Origin: Actinocatenispora rupis
Lineage (GTDB): Bacteria; Actinomycetota; Actinomycetes; Mycobacteriales; Micromonosporaceae
Reading direction: 5' to 3'
Assembly (NCBI RefSeq): GCF_016861975.1
Contig: NZ_BOMB01000054.1
Span: 1-64,000, forward strand
Length of the DNA stretch: 64,000 nucleotides
The notes under the pieces are model-generated. The model was not told the origin of the DNA and did no database searches. It saw only the letters and a program-made list of their open reading frames with translations. Position numbers and translations under genes: made by a program. Shown in pieces: positions 10,051 to 34,934 of the stretch (its first letter is position 1; every line of letters begins with the position of its first letter).

Positions 10051-12960
10051 TCAGTCGGAAACCGTGAGATCCACCAACCCGTCCGGATCCGTGCGGTCGA
10101 CCGGCCCGTCGCAGGCCGGCGGTCGTACGGGATCCGGCGGGCCGTCGAGGTCGGCAAAGTCCGGCCACGCCGGGCTGTCCGGGAGCGCGTCGGGTACCGC
10201 GAAGTCCGGCCCCGCCGGGGCGTCCGGGAGCCCGTCGGGGTCACCGGTGCCGGACGGGCGGAGGAGGCCGAGCAGCCGGCCCCGCCGGATCGCCTCGCGC
10301 CGGCTGCTGACGGCGAGCTTGCGGTAGAGGCTCTTCAGGTGCGCCTTGACGGTGTTCACGCTGATGTGCAGGTCCCCGGCGATCTCGTCGTTGCTGCTCA
10401 TGGTCGGCAGGTAGCGCAGCACGGTCAGTTCGCGGTCGGTCAGCGGCTCGGCGAGGCGTTCGGCGGGCGGGGCGGCCTGGTCGGTCAACACCATCTCCGC
10501 GAACGCCGCGTGCGTGCCGAGGACCCGCTGCTGCCGCCGGATCAGCGGTGCCAACCGGTTCCCCGCGGTACGGAACGGGTGGCTGAGGCGGTCGGGCGCG
10601 GCGAGTTCCAGGGCGCGGTCGACGGCTTCGACGGCGACGCCGTCCTGCCGTAGCGCGTCCGCGGCGAGCGCGGTGATCAGCGACTCCTCGACGGCGGCGG
10701 CCCGGCCGCGGTCGGGGGAGCGGCCCAGCGGGGCCACGCGGGCGCGCGCGCCCGCCGGGTGCCGCAGCGCCAGATCGGCCCAACCGAGCCAGATCCGCTC
10801 CCAGACGCCCGGGTCGGGGTCGGCGCGCAGGTGTTCGAGTACGGTGTCGGGCGCGCCGGCGGCGAGTTCCGCCTCGGCCTCGGCGCCCGCCAGCCATTCG
10901 GTGAGCAGCGCGGGCAGCCGGTTCCCGCTGTCGGCCCGCAGTTCGGCCAGGATCCGGCGGGCCGCGGCGGCGTCCCCGGCCTGTACGCGCAGCCGCGCCT
11001 CGGCGAGGCGTACGGCCCGGTCGAGGGTGCGGTCCGCGCCGGCCGCGGCGGACGCCCCGGCGCGGGCCAGGTGCCGGGCGGCGACGTGCGGATGATCCTG
11101 CTGTAGTTCGGCGAGCGCCAGCGCGAGGAACGCCCCCGCCGCGTACGGTTCCACCGCGCGGCCCTGGCGTTCGGCGGCCAGTACGGTCGAGCGGGCGCGG
11201 CGGGTGCCGGACCGCAGCTCGCCGCGTACCACGTCGATGACGGCGCGGTGCGCGTCGGCGCTCACCGCGGCCAGGTCCAGCCGGTGGTGGCCGGCGGCGG
11301 TCGCGGCGTCGCGCAGGCTCGCGTCCGCGGCGGCCATCCCGCCCTGCCACAGCTGGGCGCGGCCGAGGTTCCACCGCGCCAGCGCCCGGTACTCGGCGGC
11401 CGCCGGCAGTCCCGGCCTCGCGTCCGGCCCGGCCAGCGACAGCACCCGGGACGCCCCGGTACGGGCCGCGCGGACCGCGCCGGTGGAGCCGGCCGCGATC
11501 GCGTCGACCAGCGACAGCCCGATGTCGGCCGCGTCGCGCAGACCCGCCGGTACGCCCGGCAGCGTCGCCCGGGCGCGGCGCAGGTGCGCGCGGGCCCGGG
11601 CGAAGTCGTGCCGCTGTACGGCTGCGACCGCGGCGCAGGTCAGCGTCACCAGCGACGGCGCGTCGTCGGCCGCGTCGGCGAGCGGCCGTACGGTGTCGGC
11701 GAGTTGCGCGCCCTCCGCGGACAGCAGGCGCGGCAGCGCGAGCGTGAACAGTACCCGCGCCACCTCGTCGGTGTCGCCGGACCGTACCGCGTGCCACAGC
11801 GCGGTCACCGGCGCCCGGTGCGCGCCGTACCAGCGGGCCGCCCGGCGGTGCGCGTCGAGCGCCCCGGCCGGGTCCTCGGCCCGCAGCCGGTGGTACAGGT
11901 ACTCGCGGAGCAGCGGATGGTAGTCGTACGGCCGGCCCCACGGGTCCGCCGCGGAGACGAGCCGGTTGCCGGCGGTCAGGTCCGTCAGCAGTCGCCGCCC
12001 CTCGGGCTGCCCGGACACGGCCGCGGCGAGCGGCCCGCTCAACGGTTCCGCCACGCTCGTCCGCAACAGGAACGACCGCACCGGCGGCGGCAGCGGGGCC
12101 AGTACCTCCCCGGCGAGGTAGTCGGCCACGGCCGGTGACTCGCCGGAGAACCGGGCGAGGCCGGTCGCCGGGTCGGCCGGGTCCACCGACATCGCGGCGA
12201 GCCGCAACCCCGCGGCCCACCCGCCGGTACGGGCCAGCAGCCGGTCGGTCTGCCCGGCATCCAGCCGCAGCCCGTGCGCGGACAGCAGGCGGCCGGCCTC
12301 GGCGCGGTCGAACCGCAGGTCCGGCGCGTGGATCTCGCCGAGCAGCCCGTCGAGCCGCAGCCGGTGCAGCCGCAACCCCGGATCCGCCCGACCGAGCAGT
12401 ACCAGGCGCATCGCGGGCGGCGGCTGGGTGAGCAGCGCGTCGAGCCGGGCCAGTACGGAGGGGTCGTGCAGTTCGTGGATGCCGTCGAGGACCAGCACGA
12501 TCGGCGTGGTCAGGTCGTACAGCAGGGCGTGGATGCGGTCGATGTGCCGCTCCGTCCCCCCGTCCGCGTACTCCAGCGGACGCGGCCCGCCGTCGCCGAG
12601 CGGTACGCCGGTCCAGCGGAGCGCGGCGAGGACGTCGGACCAGAAGGTCGCCGGGTCGGCGTCCGTACGGTCCAGGGTGAGCCAGCCGACGGTGCCCGGC
12701 GCCGCGCCCGCCTCGGCCCATGCCGCGACCAGCGCCGTCTTGCCCTCGCCCGGCCCGGCCGTGACCAGCGTCGTACCGGCGTCGGTCAGGTCGGTCAGCC
12801 GGCGCTCCAGCCGCGGCCGGGAGACGAGTACGGCCGGCCGCCGCGGCACGGTCAGCCGTGCCACCAGCGCCGGCGCCACGCCGACCGGAAGTGCCGTCCC
12901 GGGTGGCCGACGGTACGTGTCGACGCTCGCCACCACCCGGGGTTCCACCACGCGTGTCAT
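10051..12960 (-). CDS. MalT-type ATP-dependent LuxR transcriptional regulator
   Basis: 969 residues. The STAND/AAA-like ATPase has Walker A at residues 69-75 (GPGEGKT) and Walker B-like IVLVLDGIHEL near 155. A long TPR-like helical middle (about 300-820) precedes the LuxR (GerE) helix-turn-helix at about 842-899 (LTDRELTVLRYLPTMSSNDEIAGDLHISVNTVKAHLKSLYRKL). This is the architecture of MalT/LAL regulators, which oligomerise on ATP and inducer binding and activate sigma-70 promoters. Unusually, about 70 residues follow the HTH, made of Pro/Asp-rich imperfect repeats (GLPDAPAGPDFAVPDALPDS). No obvious target operon is adjacent. Confidence 0.9.
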   Translation of the reverse strand: MTRVVEPRVVASVDTYRRPPGTALPVGVAPALVARLTVPRRPAVLVSRPRLERRLTDLTDAGTTLVTAGPGEGKTALVAAWAEAGAAPGTVGWLTLDRTDADPATFWSDVLAALRWTGVPLGDGGPRPLEYADGGTERHIDRIHALLYDLTTPIVLVLDGIHELHDPSVLARLDALLTQPPPAMRLVLLGRADPGLRLHRLRLDGLLGEIHAPDLRFDRAEAGRLLSAHGLRLDAGQTDRLLARTGGWAAGLRLAAMSVDPADPATGLARFSGESPAVADYLAGEVLAPLPPPVRSFLLRTSVAEPLSGPLAAAVSGQPEGRRLLTDLTAGNRLVSAADPWGRPYDYHPLLREYLYHRLRAEDPAGALDAHRRAARWYGAHRAPVTALWHAVRSGDTDEVARVLFTLALPRLLSAEGAQLADTVRPLADAADDAPSLVTLTCAAVAAVQRHDFARARAHLRRARATLPGVPAGLRDAADIGLSLVDAIAAGSTGAVRAARTGASRVLSLAGPDARPGLPAAAEYRALARWNLGRAQLWQGGMAAADASLRDAATAAGHHRLDLAAVSADAHRAVIDVVRGELRSGTRRARSTVLAAERQGRAVEPYAAGAFLALALAELQQDHPHVAARHLARAGASAAAGADRTLDRAVRLAEARLRVQAGDAAAARRILAELRADSGNRLPALLTEWLAGAEAEAELAAGAPDTVLEHLRADPDPGVWERIWLGWADLALRHPAGARARVAPLGRSPDRGRAAAVEESLITALAADALRQDGVAVEAVDRALELAAPDRLSHPFRTAGNRLAPLIRRQQRVLGTHAAFAEMVLTDQAAPPAERLAEPLTDRELTVLRYLPTMSSNDEIAGDLHISVNTVKAHLKSLYRKLAVSSRREAIRRGRLLGLLRPSGTGDPDGLPDAPAGPDFAVPDALPDSPAWPDFADLDGPPDPVRPPACDGPVDRTDPDGLVDLTVSD

Positions 12961-32219: not shown

Positions 32220-33170
32220 TCACGGGCGGAGCGTGACCTTGCCGGTGGTCGTACGGGCGAGCAGGTCACCGAACGCCCGGCGCACGTCACCGAGGCCGTA
32301 CGCGGCGTCCGTGCGCGGGGTCAGCACGCCGTCGGCGACCAGCCGGAACATCGCCGCCAGCGGCTCCGCGTACGCGCCGGGCACGGCGAGCGCCGGCCGC
32401 AGCCAGAACCCGAGTACGGCCGTGTTGCGTTCGGCGAGGGCGCCCGGATCGACCAGCGGGCGCCCCTCGCGCGACGCGTTGCCGAAAGTGACCAGCCGAC
32501 CGAACGGGGCCAGTACGTCGAGCCCGGCGGTGAACACCCGGCCGCCCACCGACTCCAGTACGACGTCGACGGGGTGGCCGTCGTTCGCGGCGAGCACCCG
32601 CTCGGCGTAGCCGTCCGCGTCGCCCGGGACCGCGGCGTCCGCGCCGATCGACCGCGCGTACGCCCGGCGTTCCGGTGTCGATGCGACCGCCACGACCCGG
32701 CCCGCGCCGAAGTGCCGGGCCAGCTGGACGGCGAGCGAGCCGACACCGCCCGCCGCGGCGTTGACGACGACCGACTCGCCCGGCCGGATCCGGGCGCAGC
32801 TCGCCAGTGCGTGCCAGGCGGTCAGACCCTGCACCAGCAACGCGAGCGCGGCGGCGTCGCCCACCCCCTCCGGTACGGTCACCGCGTCCGCGGCGGAAAT
32901 CACCGCGCGCTCCGCGAACCCGCCACCGGCGAACGTCGGCGCGAGCACCCGGCGACCGTCCGCGGTGCGCCCCACCACCTCCGTACCCGGCACGAACGGC
33001 AGCTCCGGCGTCGGCCGGTACGTGCCCGCGATCCGCCCCGTGTCGGCGAAGTTGACGCCTGCGGCGAGGACGTCGACGACCACCTGCCCGTCCGCGGCGA
33101 CCGGCGCGGCGGTCTCGACCAGCTCCAGTACCTCCGGCCCGCCGAACCGGTCCACCCGTACCGCCCGCAC
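32220..33170 (-). CDS. Zinc-binding-type alcohol dehydrogenase / NADPH:quinone oxidoreductase
   Basis: 316 residues of the MDR superfamily, quinone oxidoreductase branch: RAVRVDRFGGPEVLELVETAAPV, GVNFADTGRIAGTYRP, PFVPGTEVVGRTADG, the Rossmann motif VVVNAAAGGVGSLAVQLARHFGAGRVVAVAS (about 140-170) and LESVGGRVFTAGLDVLAPFGRLVTFGNASRE. The zinc-ligating Cys residues of alcohol dehydrogenases are absent, consistent with a quinone reductase. GTG 33170 has GGAGGGGG upstream; GTG 33185 with GACAAT 5 nt before it is an alternative leaderless start. Confidence 0.88.
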   Translation of the reverse strand: MRAVRVDRFGGPEVLELVETAAPVAADGQVVVDVLAAGVNFADTGRIAGTYRPTPELPFVPGTEVVGRTADGRRVLAPTFAGGGFAERAVISAADAVTVPEGVGDAAALALLVQGLTAWHALASCARIRPGESVVVNAAAGGVGSLAVQLARHFGAGRVVAVASTPERRAYARSIGADAAVPGDADGYAERVLAANDGHPVDVVLESVGGRVFTAGLDVLAPFGRLVTFGNASREGRPLVDPGALAERNTAVLGFWLRPALAVPGAYAEPLAAMFRLVADGVLTPRTDAAYGLGDVRRAFGDLLARTTTGKVTLRP

Positions 33171-33277
33171 CCGTTCCCCCTCCACCGCCGATTGTCCACC
33201 ACATCACTCGGTTTTACGTCGACGGTACGCGCCCGCTCGGTGCCAGCGGCGTACGGCCCGCGACGGACTCGGCGTTG

Positions 33278-33329: not shown

Positions 33330-33612
33330 CGTACGTCCGGCCGTGTCGGCGGACATCGACGCCGCGCGCGTCGACGAGTGGTCGAGTCGGAGTCGTCCGC
33401 GCCCCGGGCGGCGCCATGAGTCCCGCCGCATCCGGCGCCACGAACCACCCCGCGCTCCGGCCGGGTGTATGCCTTCCACCGGCCCGCCACCGCGCCCCGC
33501 AGGACGTTCCGCGCGTCGATGGTGTGCCAGCCGCCCGGGTCGCCCGGCGGACGATGTGCCCCGGTGCCGGTCCGGGACGGCACGCGCGGGTTCGGCCGGT
33601 ACGGCGGTGTTA

Positions 33613-33774
33613 GAGGTCCTAACAGAAAGGCGTCGGAAGGCTGGCGAGGCTCAGGGCGGGGCTGCCAAGGCGGAGGTGCAGTCGCATACCGGTGTTGTAT
33701 GCGACTGTGCCGACAACGTCGGCAGCGTCGTCCTGAGTCCGCCAGGCGCCGACAGTCCTTTCTGTTAGGACCTC
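33613..33774. mobile_element. 162-bp MITE-like element with TTA target duplication (IS5-type ends)
   Basis: Perfect 18-bp terminal inverted repeats, GAGGTCCTAACAGAAAGG at 33613-33630 and its inverse at 33757-33774, are flanked by TTA on both sides (33610-33612 and 33775-33777). A 3-bp TNA duplication is typical of IS5-family transposition. The interior encodes nothing and folds on itself: GGCTGGCGAGGCTCAGG pairs imperfectly with CCTGAGTCCGCCAGGC, and CAGTCGCATAC/GTATGCGACTG (from 33680) plus GCCGAC-AAC-GTCGGC (33710-33724) form inner hairpins. It sits directly upstream of a -10 hexamer (TAGGCT, 33776-33781) that spans the right TTA, separating that promoter from its -35 region. No transposase is in the window. 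Confidence 0.8.
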
Positions 33775-33787
33775 TTAGGCTGCCGGC

Positions 33788-33862
33788 ATGTCGCGCATCG
33801 CCTACAAGCTGCCCCTGTACGGGGTGGACACCGAGCGCGGCGACCTCGCTTCGATGCCGTGA
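33788..33862 (+). CDS. 24-codon open reading frame behind a leaderless promoter
   Basis: MSRIAYKLPLYGVDTERGDL, then ASMP and TGA. ATG 33788 lies exactly 6 nt after the -10-like TAGGCT, the same geometry as many real genes here, and the codon choice is good. It could be a small protein or leader peptide for the adenosine deaminase starting 67 nt later, or the stump of a gene whose promoter was hit by the MITE-like element. No homologue is recognised. Confidence 0.4.
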   Translation: MSRIAYKLPLYGVDTERGDLASMP

Positions 33863-33929
33863 CGCGACAGCGGATCCCGCTGCCCTCCCGTCACCGTCCA
33901 CGGCCATCCCGACCTTCCGGAGCGATCCC

Positions 33930-34934
33930 GTGTCCCTGCCCGACGTCATCCGTGCCCTGCCCAAGACCGACCTGCACCTGCACCTGGTCGGCTCGGCGTC
34001 CGTACCGACAGTGCTCGACCTGGCCCGCCGGCATCCGGCGGCCGGCATCCGACCGGACGCCGAGCACCTGCGCCGCTTCTACACGTTCACCGACTTCGCC
34101 CACTTCATCGACGTGTACCACGCCGTCGACCAGCTCGTACGCACGCCGGAGGACGTGACCGCGCTGATCGTCGGCGCCGCCCGGGATGCCGCGGCCAACA
34201 ACGTCCGGTGGGCCGAACTGACCGTCACCGCGAGCACCCATCTGGGGGTGGGGATGGATCCGGGCGCGCTCGCCGCGGCGATGGCGGCCGGCCGCGAGAC
34301 CGCGCTGCGCGAGCACGGCGTACGCCTCGGGTTCATCGTGGACACGCCCGCCGAGTACGGCCTGGATGCGGCCGACGCGACGACCGCCTTCCTGCGCCAC
34401 CACGCGCCGCCCGGTACGGTCGCGGTCGGGCTCGCCGGCCTGGAGCAGGCCGCACCCCGCGCCCTGTTCGCGCGGTACGTCGAGCAGGGGCGCGACCTGG
34501 GCTACCGCGCGGTCATCCACGCGGGCGAGTCGACCGGGCCGGACGCCGTCCGGTCGGCGCTGCACGACCTGCACGCGGACCGCATCGGCCACGGCATCGC
34601 CGCGGTCGCCGACCCCGAACTGCTCGCCCACCTCGCCCACACCGGTACGCCGCTGGAGGTGTGCCCGACGTCGAACCTGCGTACCGGGGTGGTGGCCGAT
34701 CCCGCGCGGCACCCGGTCGTCGAGCTGCTGCGCGCCGGGGTGACCGTCACGCTGGGGACCGACGACCCGGGCATGTTCGACACCAACCTGTGCCGGGAGT
34801 ACGGGTACGTGGCCCGGCTCGCCGGGTTGGACGCCCACGGGGTCGCCGGGATCGCCCGCGCCGGCGTACGCGCCTCGTTCGCCCCGGACGAGCTGAAACG
34901 CGACCTGCTCACCGAGATCGACGCCACCCTCTGA
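33930..34934 (+). CDS. Adenosine deaminase family protein
   Basis: 334 residues of the metal-dependent amidohydrolase (TIM barrel) family. Metal ligands H16 and H18 are in LPKTDLHLHLVGSAS, the third His in VIHAGEST (about 196), catalytic Glu in the same motif, His in DRIGHGIAAV (about 221) and Asp pair in LGTDDPGMFDTNL (about 277). The family block LEVCPTSNLRTG is present. Adenosine to inosine is the expected reaction, but adenine or aminodeoxyfutalosine deaminases are close relatives. GTG 33930 follows CGGAG; the frame extends far upstream without coding pattern. Confidence 0.88.
   Translation: MSLPDVIRALPKTDLHLHLVGSASVPTVLDLARRHPAAGIRPDAEHLRRFYTFTDFAHFIDVYHAVDQLVRTPEDVTALIVGAARDAAANNVRWAELTVTASTHLGVGMDPGALAAAMAAGRETALREHGVRLGFIVDTPAEYGLDAADATTAFLRHHAPPGTVAVGLAGLEQAAPRALFARYVEQGRDLGYRAVIHAGESTGPDAVRSALHDLHADRIGHGIAAVADPELLAHLAHTGTPLEVCPTSNLRTGVVADPARHPVVELLRAGVTVTLGTDDPGMFDTNLCREYGYVARLAGLDAHGVAGIARAGVRASFAPDELKRDLLTEIDATL

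Follow-up and report, generated by a model that had tools for sequence, protein, structure and literature searches.

A many-copy hairpin MITE in Actinocatenispora rupis, with IS5-family ends and an interior that occurs with other ends in other actinomycetes

The window analysed here is a stretch of 64,000 nucleotides from Actinocatenispora rupis (NZ_BOMB01000054.1, positions 1 to 64,000). A 162-bp element lies in it at 33613-33774, between a divergent neighbour encoding a zinc-binding dehydrogenase (32220-33185, minus strand) and the next long gene downstream, for an adenosine deaminase (33930-34934, plus strand); it is oriented so that AAGGCGGA reads on the plus strand. Its left terminal inverted repeat is the 18-bp GAGGTCCTAACAGAAAGG (33613-33630, plus strand) and the right one is the exact reverse complement (33757-33774, minus strand), perfect over 18 bp, with a TTA target duplication on either side (33610-33612 and 33775-33777). 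The original prediction had described a 162-bp MITE with perfect 18-bp repeats, a TTA duplication and the ability to fold, and in each of these respects it is borne out. The element is short and non-coding and carries terminal inverted repeats, as expected of a MITE. Folded as single-stranded DNA, it forms one long hairpin of -66.6 kcal/mol, compared with -29.6 kcal/mol (sd 3.2) for shuffled versions (z = -11.6; none of 200 shuffles was equally stable).

Near the middle of this hairpin is a conserved ‘core’ hairpin (33663-33722, plus strand), which scores 76.3 bits with a covariance model, R1, described below. It contains an internal loop with two conserved strands, AAGGCGGA on the left (33667-33674, plus strand) and CGACAAC on the right (33711-33717, plus strand). 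The apical ATACCGGTGTTGTAT (33686-33700, plus strand) is common in near relatives and absent from the 29 class-level rows considered below.

The element abuts a possible promoter. A -10-like hexamer, TAGGCT (33776-33781, plus strand), overlaps the right TTA as had been described, and 6 nt after it an ATG at 33788 opens a tiny, possibly leaderless frame of 24 amino acids (33788-33862, plus strand). This frame has a weakly similar counterpart at C47:81694, in which TAGACT is followed at the same spacing of 6 nt by ATG and which is 69% identical over 16 residues (E = 0.15); matches to the tiny frame at E values up to 10 occur in 13 of 61 genomes, the best outside its own genome being 0.066. Both frames (33788-33862 in the window and G000 C47:81694-81741, locus L249) read xLPLYGxDxxRGDLA, 6 nt past TAGNCT, and are perhaps leader peptides. 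The counterpart at C47 makes a leaderless promoter plausible for the window frame, and the MITE would separate such a promoter from its upstream sequence. A sigma-70 scan of 33450-33950 found no promoter-like pair and no -35, so the suggestion that the right arm supplies a new -35 is not supported. Thus, what stands of the proposed promoter is the hexamer and the tiny frame with its weakly similar counterpart, whilst the -35 does not, and a promoter effect of the insertion is unproven. The same interval contains no T-tailed intrinsic terminator.

Searching the genome for the terminal repeat had been suggested as a check. With up to three mismatches, the 18-mer end occurs at 69 sites in the element's own genome and its reversed control at one. 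When 40 of 70 candidates were scored, at least 23 proved to be near-full copies of the 162-bp unit, at 93-100% identity, and there were besides two diverged copies at 76-77% as well as partial and shorter ones. Both ends are kept in seven shorter forms, of 46, 52, 58, 67, 67, 84 and 117 bp. Six forms of 46-84 bp (L029, L030, L037, L038, L039 and L047) have both ends and lack the core, and two sites carry the 67-bp form in identical sequence.

Of the 23 near-full copies, 12 sit between identical 3-bp flanks, in every case TNA. An exact duplication is missing in the other 11, six of which (L009, L010, L013, L016, L022 and L023) have TNA on both sides, yet differing, as would be expected if copies had recombined with each other or if flanks had mutated. 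At 9 of the 23 copies, the triplet beside the element serves as the stop codon of a called gene. According to gene calls by a simple script, no near-full copy lies inside a gene; 11 are between convergent genes, 8 between divergent genes and 4 between genes in tandem.

The proposed comparison with empty sites was made by joining the flanks of 10 of the 23 copies and searching four genomes of the genus, and it revealed uninterrupted sites in relatives for two copies other than that of the window (L005 and L012). The joined L005 site is spanned by one match in G001 (78%) and in G003 (76%); the alignment shows the element to be absent there, with CCTGA at the position of the stop codon, and in G002 the match is about 37 bp longer, at 73%. 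The L012 site is spanned at 80-82% in G001, G002 and G003, with some extra bases to the left of the site in G001 and G002. For the other eight joined sites no match in the four genomes crossed the junction by a useful margin, and the downstream flank of the window copy gave weak matches only, in three relatives.

A candidate source of transposase, looked for as the original prediction had advised, is present in the same genome. An 889-bp IS at C10:141148-142036 has the ends GAGGTCCTAACAGAAT and GAGGTCCTAACAAAAT and is flanked by TTA left and right. Overlapping frames encode its DUF4096 and DDE_Tnp_1 parts, which score 99.6 and 119.4 bits against the NCBI IS5 model NF033580, for which the cut-off of 110 applies to a whole protein. 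The IS is single in the genome, there being one match for the C-terminal part of its transposase. Its first bases agree with those of the MITE at 15 of 15 positions on one side (the first 15 bp of the left repeat are the IS end at C10:141148) and 14 of 15 on the other, the agreement over the full repeat being 15 of 18 bases. The reading of the element as IS5-related, which was to be doubted were there no other copies and no matching IS, has thus met with neither absence, and is supported by the other copies, by this same-ended IS5-family element with TTA flanks and by the two empty sites. The window insert can be taken as confirmed to be a real, many-copy mobile DNA hairpin with ends of a known transposon kind.

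The likeness of the MITE to IS5-family elements (NF033580, DUF4096, DDE_Tnp_1) consists in its end sequence and 3-bp TNA duplication. Unlike them, it has no transposase, and its interior is unrelated to that of the C10 IS. Outside the ends, nothing is shared by the two above chance; the resemblance between the core and a 10-mer of the IS (E = 0.2) was taken as fortuitous. On this comparison the interior is not a product of deletion of the C10 IS, a derivation that is not required of all MITEs. An ordinary IS5-family MITE, left over from an internal deletion in one IS and with nothing special inside, would account for ends and TTA flanks that match an IS5-family element of the genome and for the many copies. 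Such a relic would not be expected to resemble its IS above chance in the ends alone, nor to have an interior that recurs with other ends, and with the MITE and the C10 IS alike in their ends only, a simple IS-relic origin is disfavoured and seems to us improbable. What the earlier reading overlooked is that the interior does not derive from the C10 IS and is part of a wide lineage with changing ends.

This lineage became visible in that the places matching the middle of the element have differing ends. Core matches include one in the Actinocatenispora comari record NZ_BOPO01000123, and contig C123 of G001 has a copy at 11,787. A BLAST search with the 62-bp core of L071, scoring three candidates per genome, found matches in 34 of 300 genomes of the family and in 10 of 44 genera, its own included. 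A strict core pattern detected 49 stretches in named genomes, from Micromonospora, Longispora, Rugosimonospora, Actinocatenispora, Glycomyces, Stackebrandtia, Nocardia, Rhodococcus, Pseudonocardia and a Pseudonocardiales bin. The covariance model R1, made from 52 of 58 distinct cores, gave 108 matches across all four genomes of the genus (45, 18, 27 and 18), with 150 candidates scored per genome. At class level it matched at least 50 of 394 genomes and 19 of 138 genera, its own included; this is a lower bound imposed by stricter filters and 13 candidates per genome, and the weak matches may include false ones.

A phage origin was considered and rejected, since one Streptomyces-type element, other than the window's own, had no phage match and the strict pattern found nothing in viral contigs. 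Plasmids do carry related elements: that of L271 has matches in 65 plasmid records, 63 from Streptomyces and two from Embleya, and the gene tables of two plasmid records examined list no transposase. At L313, on a plasmid of Streptomyces sp. NBC_00316, the annotated record has a gene terminating just inside the element, in its first bases, and places the element between convergent genes. As far as sequence can define it, the interior is a lineage of palindromes of about 165 bp found in Actinocatenispora, Micromonospora, Glycomyces, Nocardia, Streptomyces and others. The open-access literature that was searched yielded no account of this lineage, and neither did the available text of the review PMC10969869.

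Common to the lineage is a hairpin with an asymmetric internal loop, AAGGCGGA / CGACAAC, and covarying stems. RNAalifold applied to 34 of 56 extracted cores showed both-side changes in 27 of 33 pairs. The model alignment has 88 rows, 87 of them distinct, drawn from 83 chosen sources. Of its cells 90.8% pair, and the covariation score is 0.531, compared with 0.148 (sd 0.009) for shuffles and at most 0.117 for slid structures. Covariation of this kind is not proof of function, because the alignment is fitted to the structure and because a palindrome symmetrised by repair would covary too. Both AAGGCGGA and GACAACG are kept in 28 of 29 rows from the class search, and the apical ATACCGGTGT in none; both loop motifs are kept strictly in 55 of 87 genus rows. 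The true constancy of the loop is lower than these counts, since model and pattern were built on the loop and favour such rows. No Rfam family reached its gathering score for the window copy and five related loci, the four matches listed having E values of at least 1.9, and identity with a known RNA family was set aside. Folded as RNA, five plus-strand cores form the upper stem, as does the minus strand of the window core, and the small lower helix varies between cores.

The ends were surveyed in two sets. The genus set comprised 85 of the 108 matches, rows L208 and L213 and 21 of the 23 near-full 162-bp copies being set aside; the set from other taxa comprised 77 chosen rows (from L074-L095, L100-L148 and L262-L290), among which at least five pairs are the same place reached through two collections. 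Inverted ends agreeing at 12 or more of 15 positions are present in 62 of the 85 genus rows and 69 of the 77 others, and in 28 of 400 random placements. Element length has a median of 165 in both sets and a range of 141-204. At 80% identity the ends fall into about 16 clusters among the 62 genus elements and 43 overall, and at 70% into 8 and 17, one cluster then taking in 49 of the 62 ends from the genus; these counts are rough, as the boundaries set automatically are wrong in some rows.

How far ends and interiors part company was examined in 16 hand-chosen pairs among 16 hand-chosen elements. Five pairs, each from a single genome, combine interiors that are 73-89% identical with ends no more than 0.06 above shuffled. 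The clearest is L178 and L198, both in the window element's own genome, with interiors 89% identical and ends at 34%, shuffled ends giving 43%; for the other four the interiors are 73-88% identical and the ends at most 0.06 above shuffled. The ends of the other 11 pairs are more than 0.06 above shuffled, which indicates that part of the end variety is gradual. L188, L192 and L200 in G002, for example, have 98-99% of their interior in common and ends that are 70-77% alike.

These graded cases bear on a second alternative: a single, old MITE lineage in which the ends followed their transposases by gradual drift, with no exchange, and in which covariation only reflects repair from arm to arm. The ends of L188, L192 and L200 that are still alike, the 11 of 16 pairs clearly above shuffled, the single cluster holding 49 of 62 genus ends at 70% linkage and the steady length (median 165) would all fit such drift. 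It would not be expected to give the unrelated ends of L178 and L198, two elements of one genome whose interiors are 89% identical. Symmetrising repair would also tend to erase non-complementary loop motifs, which 28 of 29 class rows keep, a figure subject to the ascertainment described above. On balance we regard gradual drift alone as rather unlikely. Within the 162-bp family, a greater variability of ends than interior (12 of 36 versus 20 of 126 sites variable, row L021 excluded; permutation p = 0.022) is too weak to lean on.

Three of the end types resemble the ends of three IS5-family elements, two of which are in another Actinocatenispora species than the MITEs they resemble. Besides the C10 IS, these are represented in G003 by L160 and L162, where TCA or TAA flanks the ends GAGGCTGTTGGG and these ends resemble those of MITEs L179 and L198, and by L165, with ends GAGATCAGTTCAGAATGAG and TAA flanks, which resemble those of L056. 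The L160 protein passes NF033580 with 228 bits and is 28% identical over 109 residues to the C-terminal part of the C10 transposase. The L165 frame that was scanned passes DUF4096 and scores 88.1 bits on NF033580, below the whole-protein cut-off of 110. No IS was found with TAGGGCGTGTC, the commonest of the other ends, either as a close pair of pattern sites or in the 20 stretches inspected around such sites; six further places in G003, including a 64-bp pair, lie outside these 20. Near TAGGGCGTGTC pattern sites there are five short elements of 49-89 bp. L310 (G003:C1:127085-127137) is a 49-bp element consisting almost only of two ends that begin GGGCGTGTCTGGTGGATCTT.

Some core hairpins lie close to genes. 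Twelve of those in the genus, taken to have no clear ends (10 from the 23 survey rows with no ends, plus L232 and L236, both of which passed 12/15), are just after stop codons, and 10 of the 12 are antisense to the nearest gene. Six hairpins without clear ends, L226, L228, L229, L230, L232 and L234, follow stop codons and have the word TGGGGAC in common on the left; L230 and L232, from two species, look like orthologues. These twelve, with two pairs that look orthologous, would be accommodated if the core were the RNA structure or terminator of a host-gene 3' end captured by transposons. Other sets point either way, the ratio of sense to antisense being 7:6 in the 162-bp family, 26:12 for other genus matches and 21:31 in other taxa, so a common 3'-end RNA role is not supported and, with no consistent orientation to genes, was rejected. 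Target choice at stop codons also explains part of the position, and the window copy is without a T-tailed terminator. Capture from a gene 3' end thus strikes us as a poor prospect, as improbable as the deletion of an IS.

The explanation that we consider probable overall is an IS5-mobilised element with a lineage-wide core and changing ends. An IS5-family transposase recognising ends of the GAGGTCCT type would move the non-autonomous element in trans and duplicate the TNA target; the ends, the flanks, the number of copies and the empty sites speak for such trans-mobilisation. The lineage of about 165 bp would keep its structured core and change its ends, so that different transposases could move its members. 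The pattern of kept core and changed ends is there in the sequences; movement by different transposases is what we infer from it. Points that weigh against this explanation are the 11 copies with no exact duplication, the eight joined sites with no useful match, the single copy of the C10 IS and the 15 of 18 bases over which its ends agree, the search for an IS with TAGGGCGTGTC ends that found none in the places covered, and the short forms that have no core. The most likely route for end exchange may be the long hairpin itself, in which a new end acquired on one arm could be copied to the other by hairpin-templated repair. Against this route, the two arms match in no more than 14 of 22 copies of the 162-bp family at the end position that varies most. 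As to why the core is kept, the folded form with its fixed internal loop might most likely be recognised or tolerated by a host factor, or shield the insert from transcription, and here our preference is slight. A more far-reaching version, which we advance tentatively and at somewhat less than even chances, is that of a class-wide ‘modular parasite’, whose folded core, with its near-invariant internal loop, would be passed between transposase systems by the swapping of both terminal repeats and would constitute an undescribed functional nucleic-acid module.

To our knowledge, Correia/NEMIS, ERIC, RUP and other bacterial MITE families are each known by one end sequence, whereas here one core is found with many ends. 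According to the available text of a review, bacterial MITEs such as Correia/NEMIS, ERIC, RUP and others are small and non-autonomous and can carry transcribed secondary-structure motifs (PMC2229807); there is no actinomycete family among its headings. For rice mPing, the accessible part of one report has internal as well as terminal sequences regulating mobility (PMC9921582). That element is eukaryotic and has a different transposase, and is likened to the present ones by description, not by sequence. REP elements, with their REP-associated tyrosine transposases, are likewise repeated extragenic hairpins, as far as the available text describes them (PMC2817692). The present elements differ from these in having long inverted ends and TNA duplications.

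MITEs are normally viewed as relics, bound to one transposase through their ends. The structured core, whose stems covary and whose internal loop is conserved, matches no Rfam family here and is a candidate nucleic-acid motif in antibiotic-producing genera. If a lineage retains its interior while its ends change, this would account for the survival of tiny elements beyond that of their helper ISs, and such a lineage would provide a tractable system for learning how both ends get exchanged.
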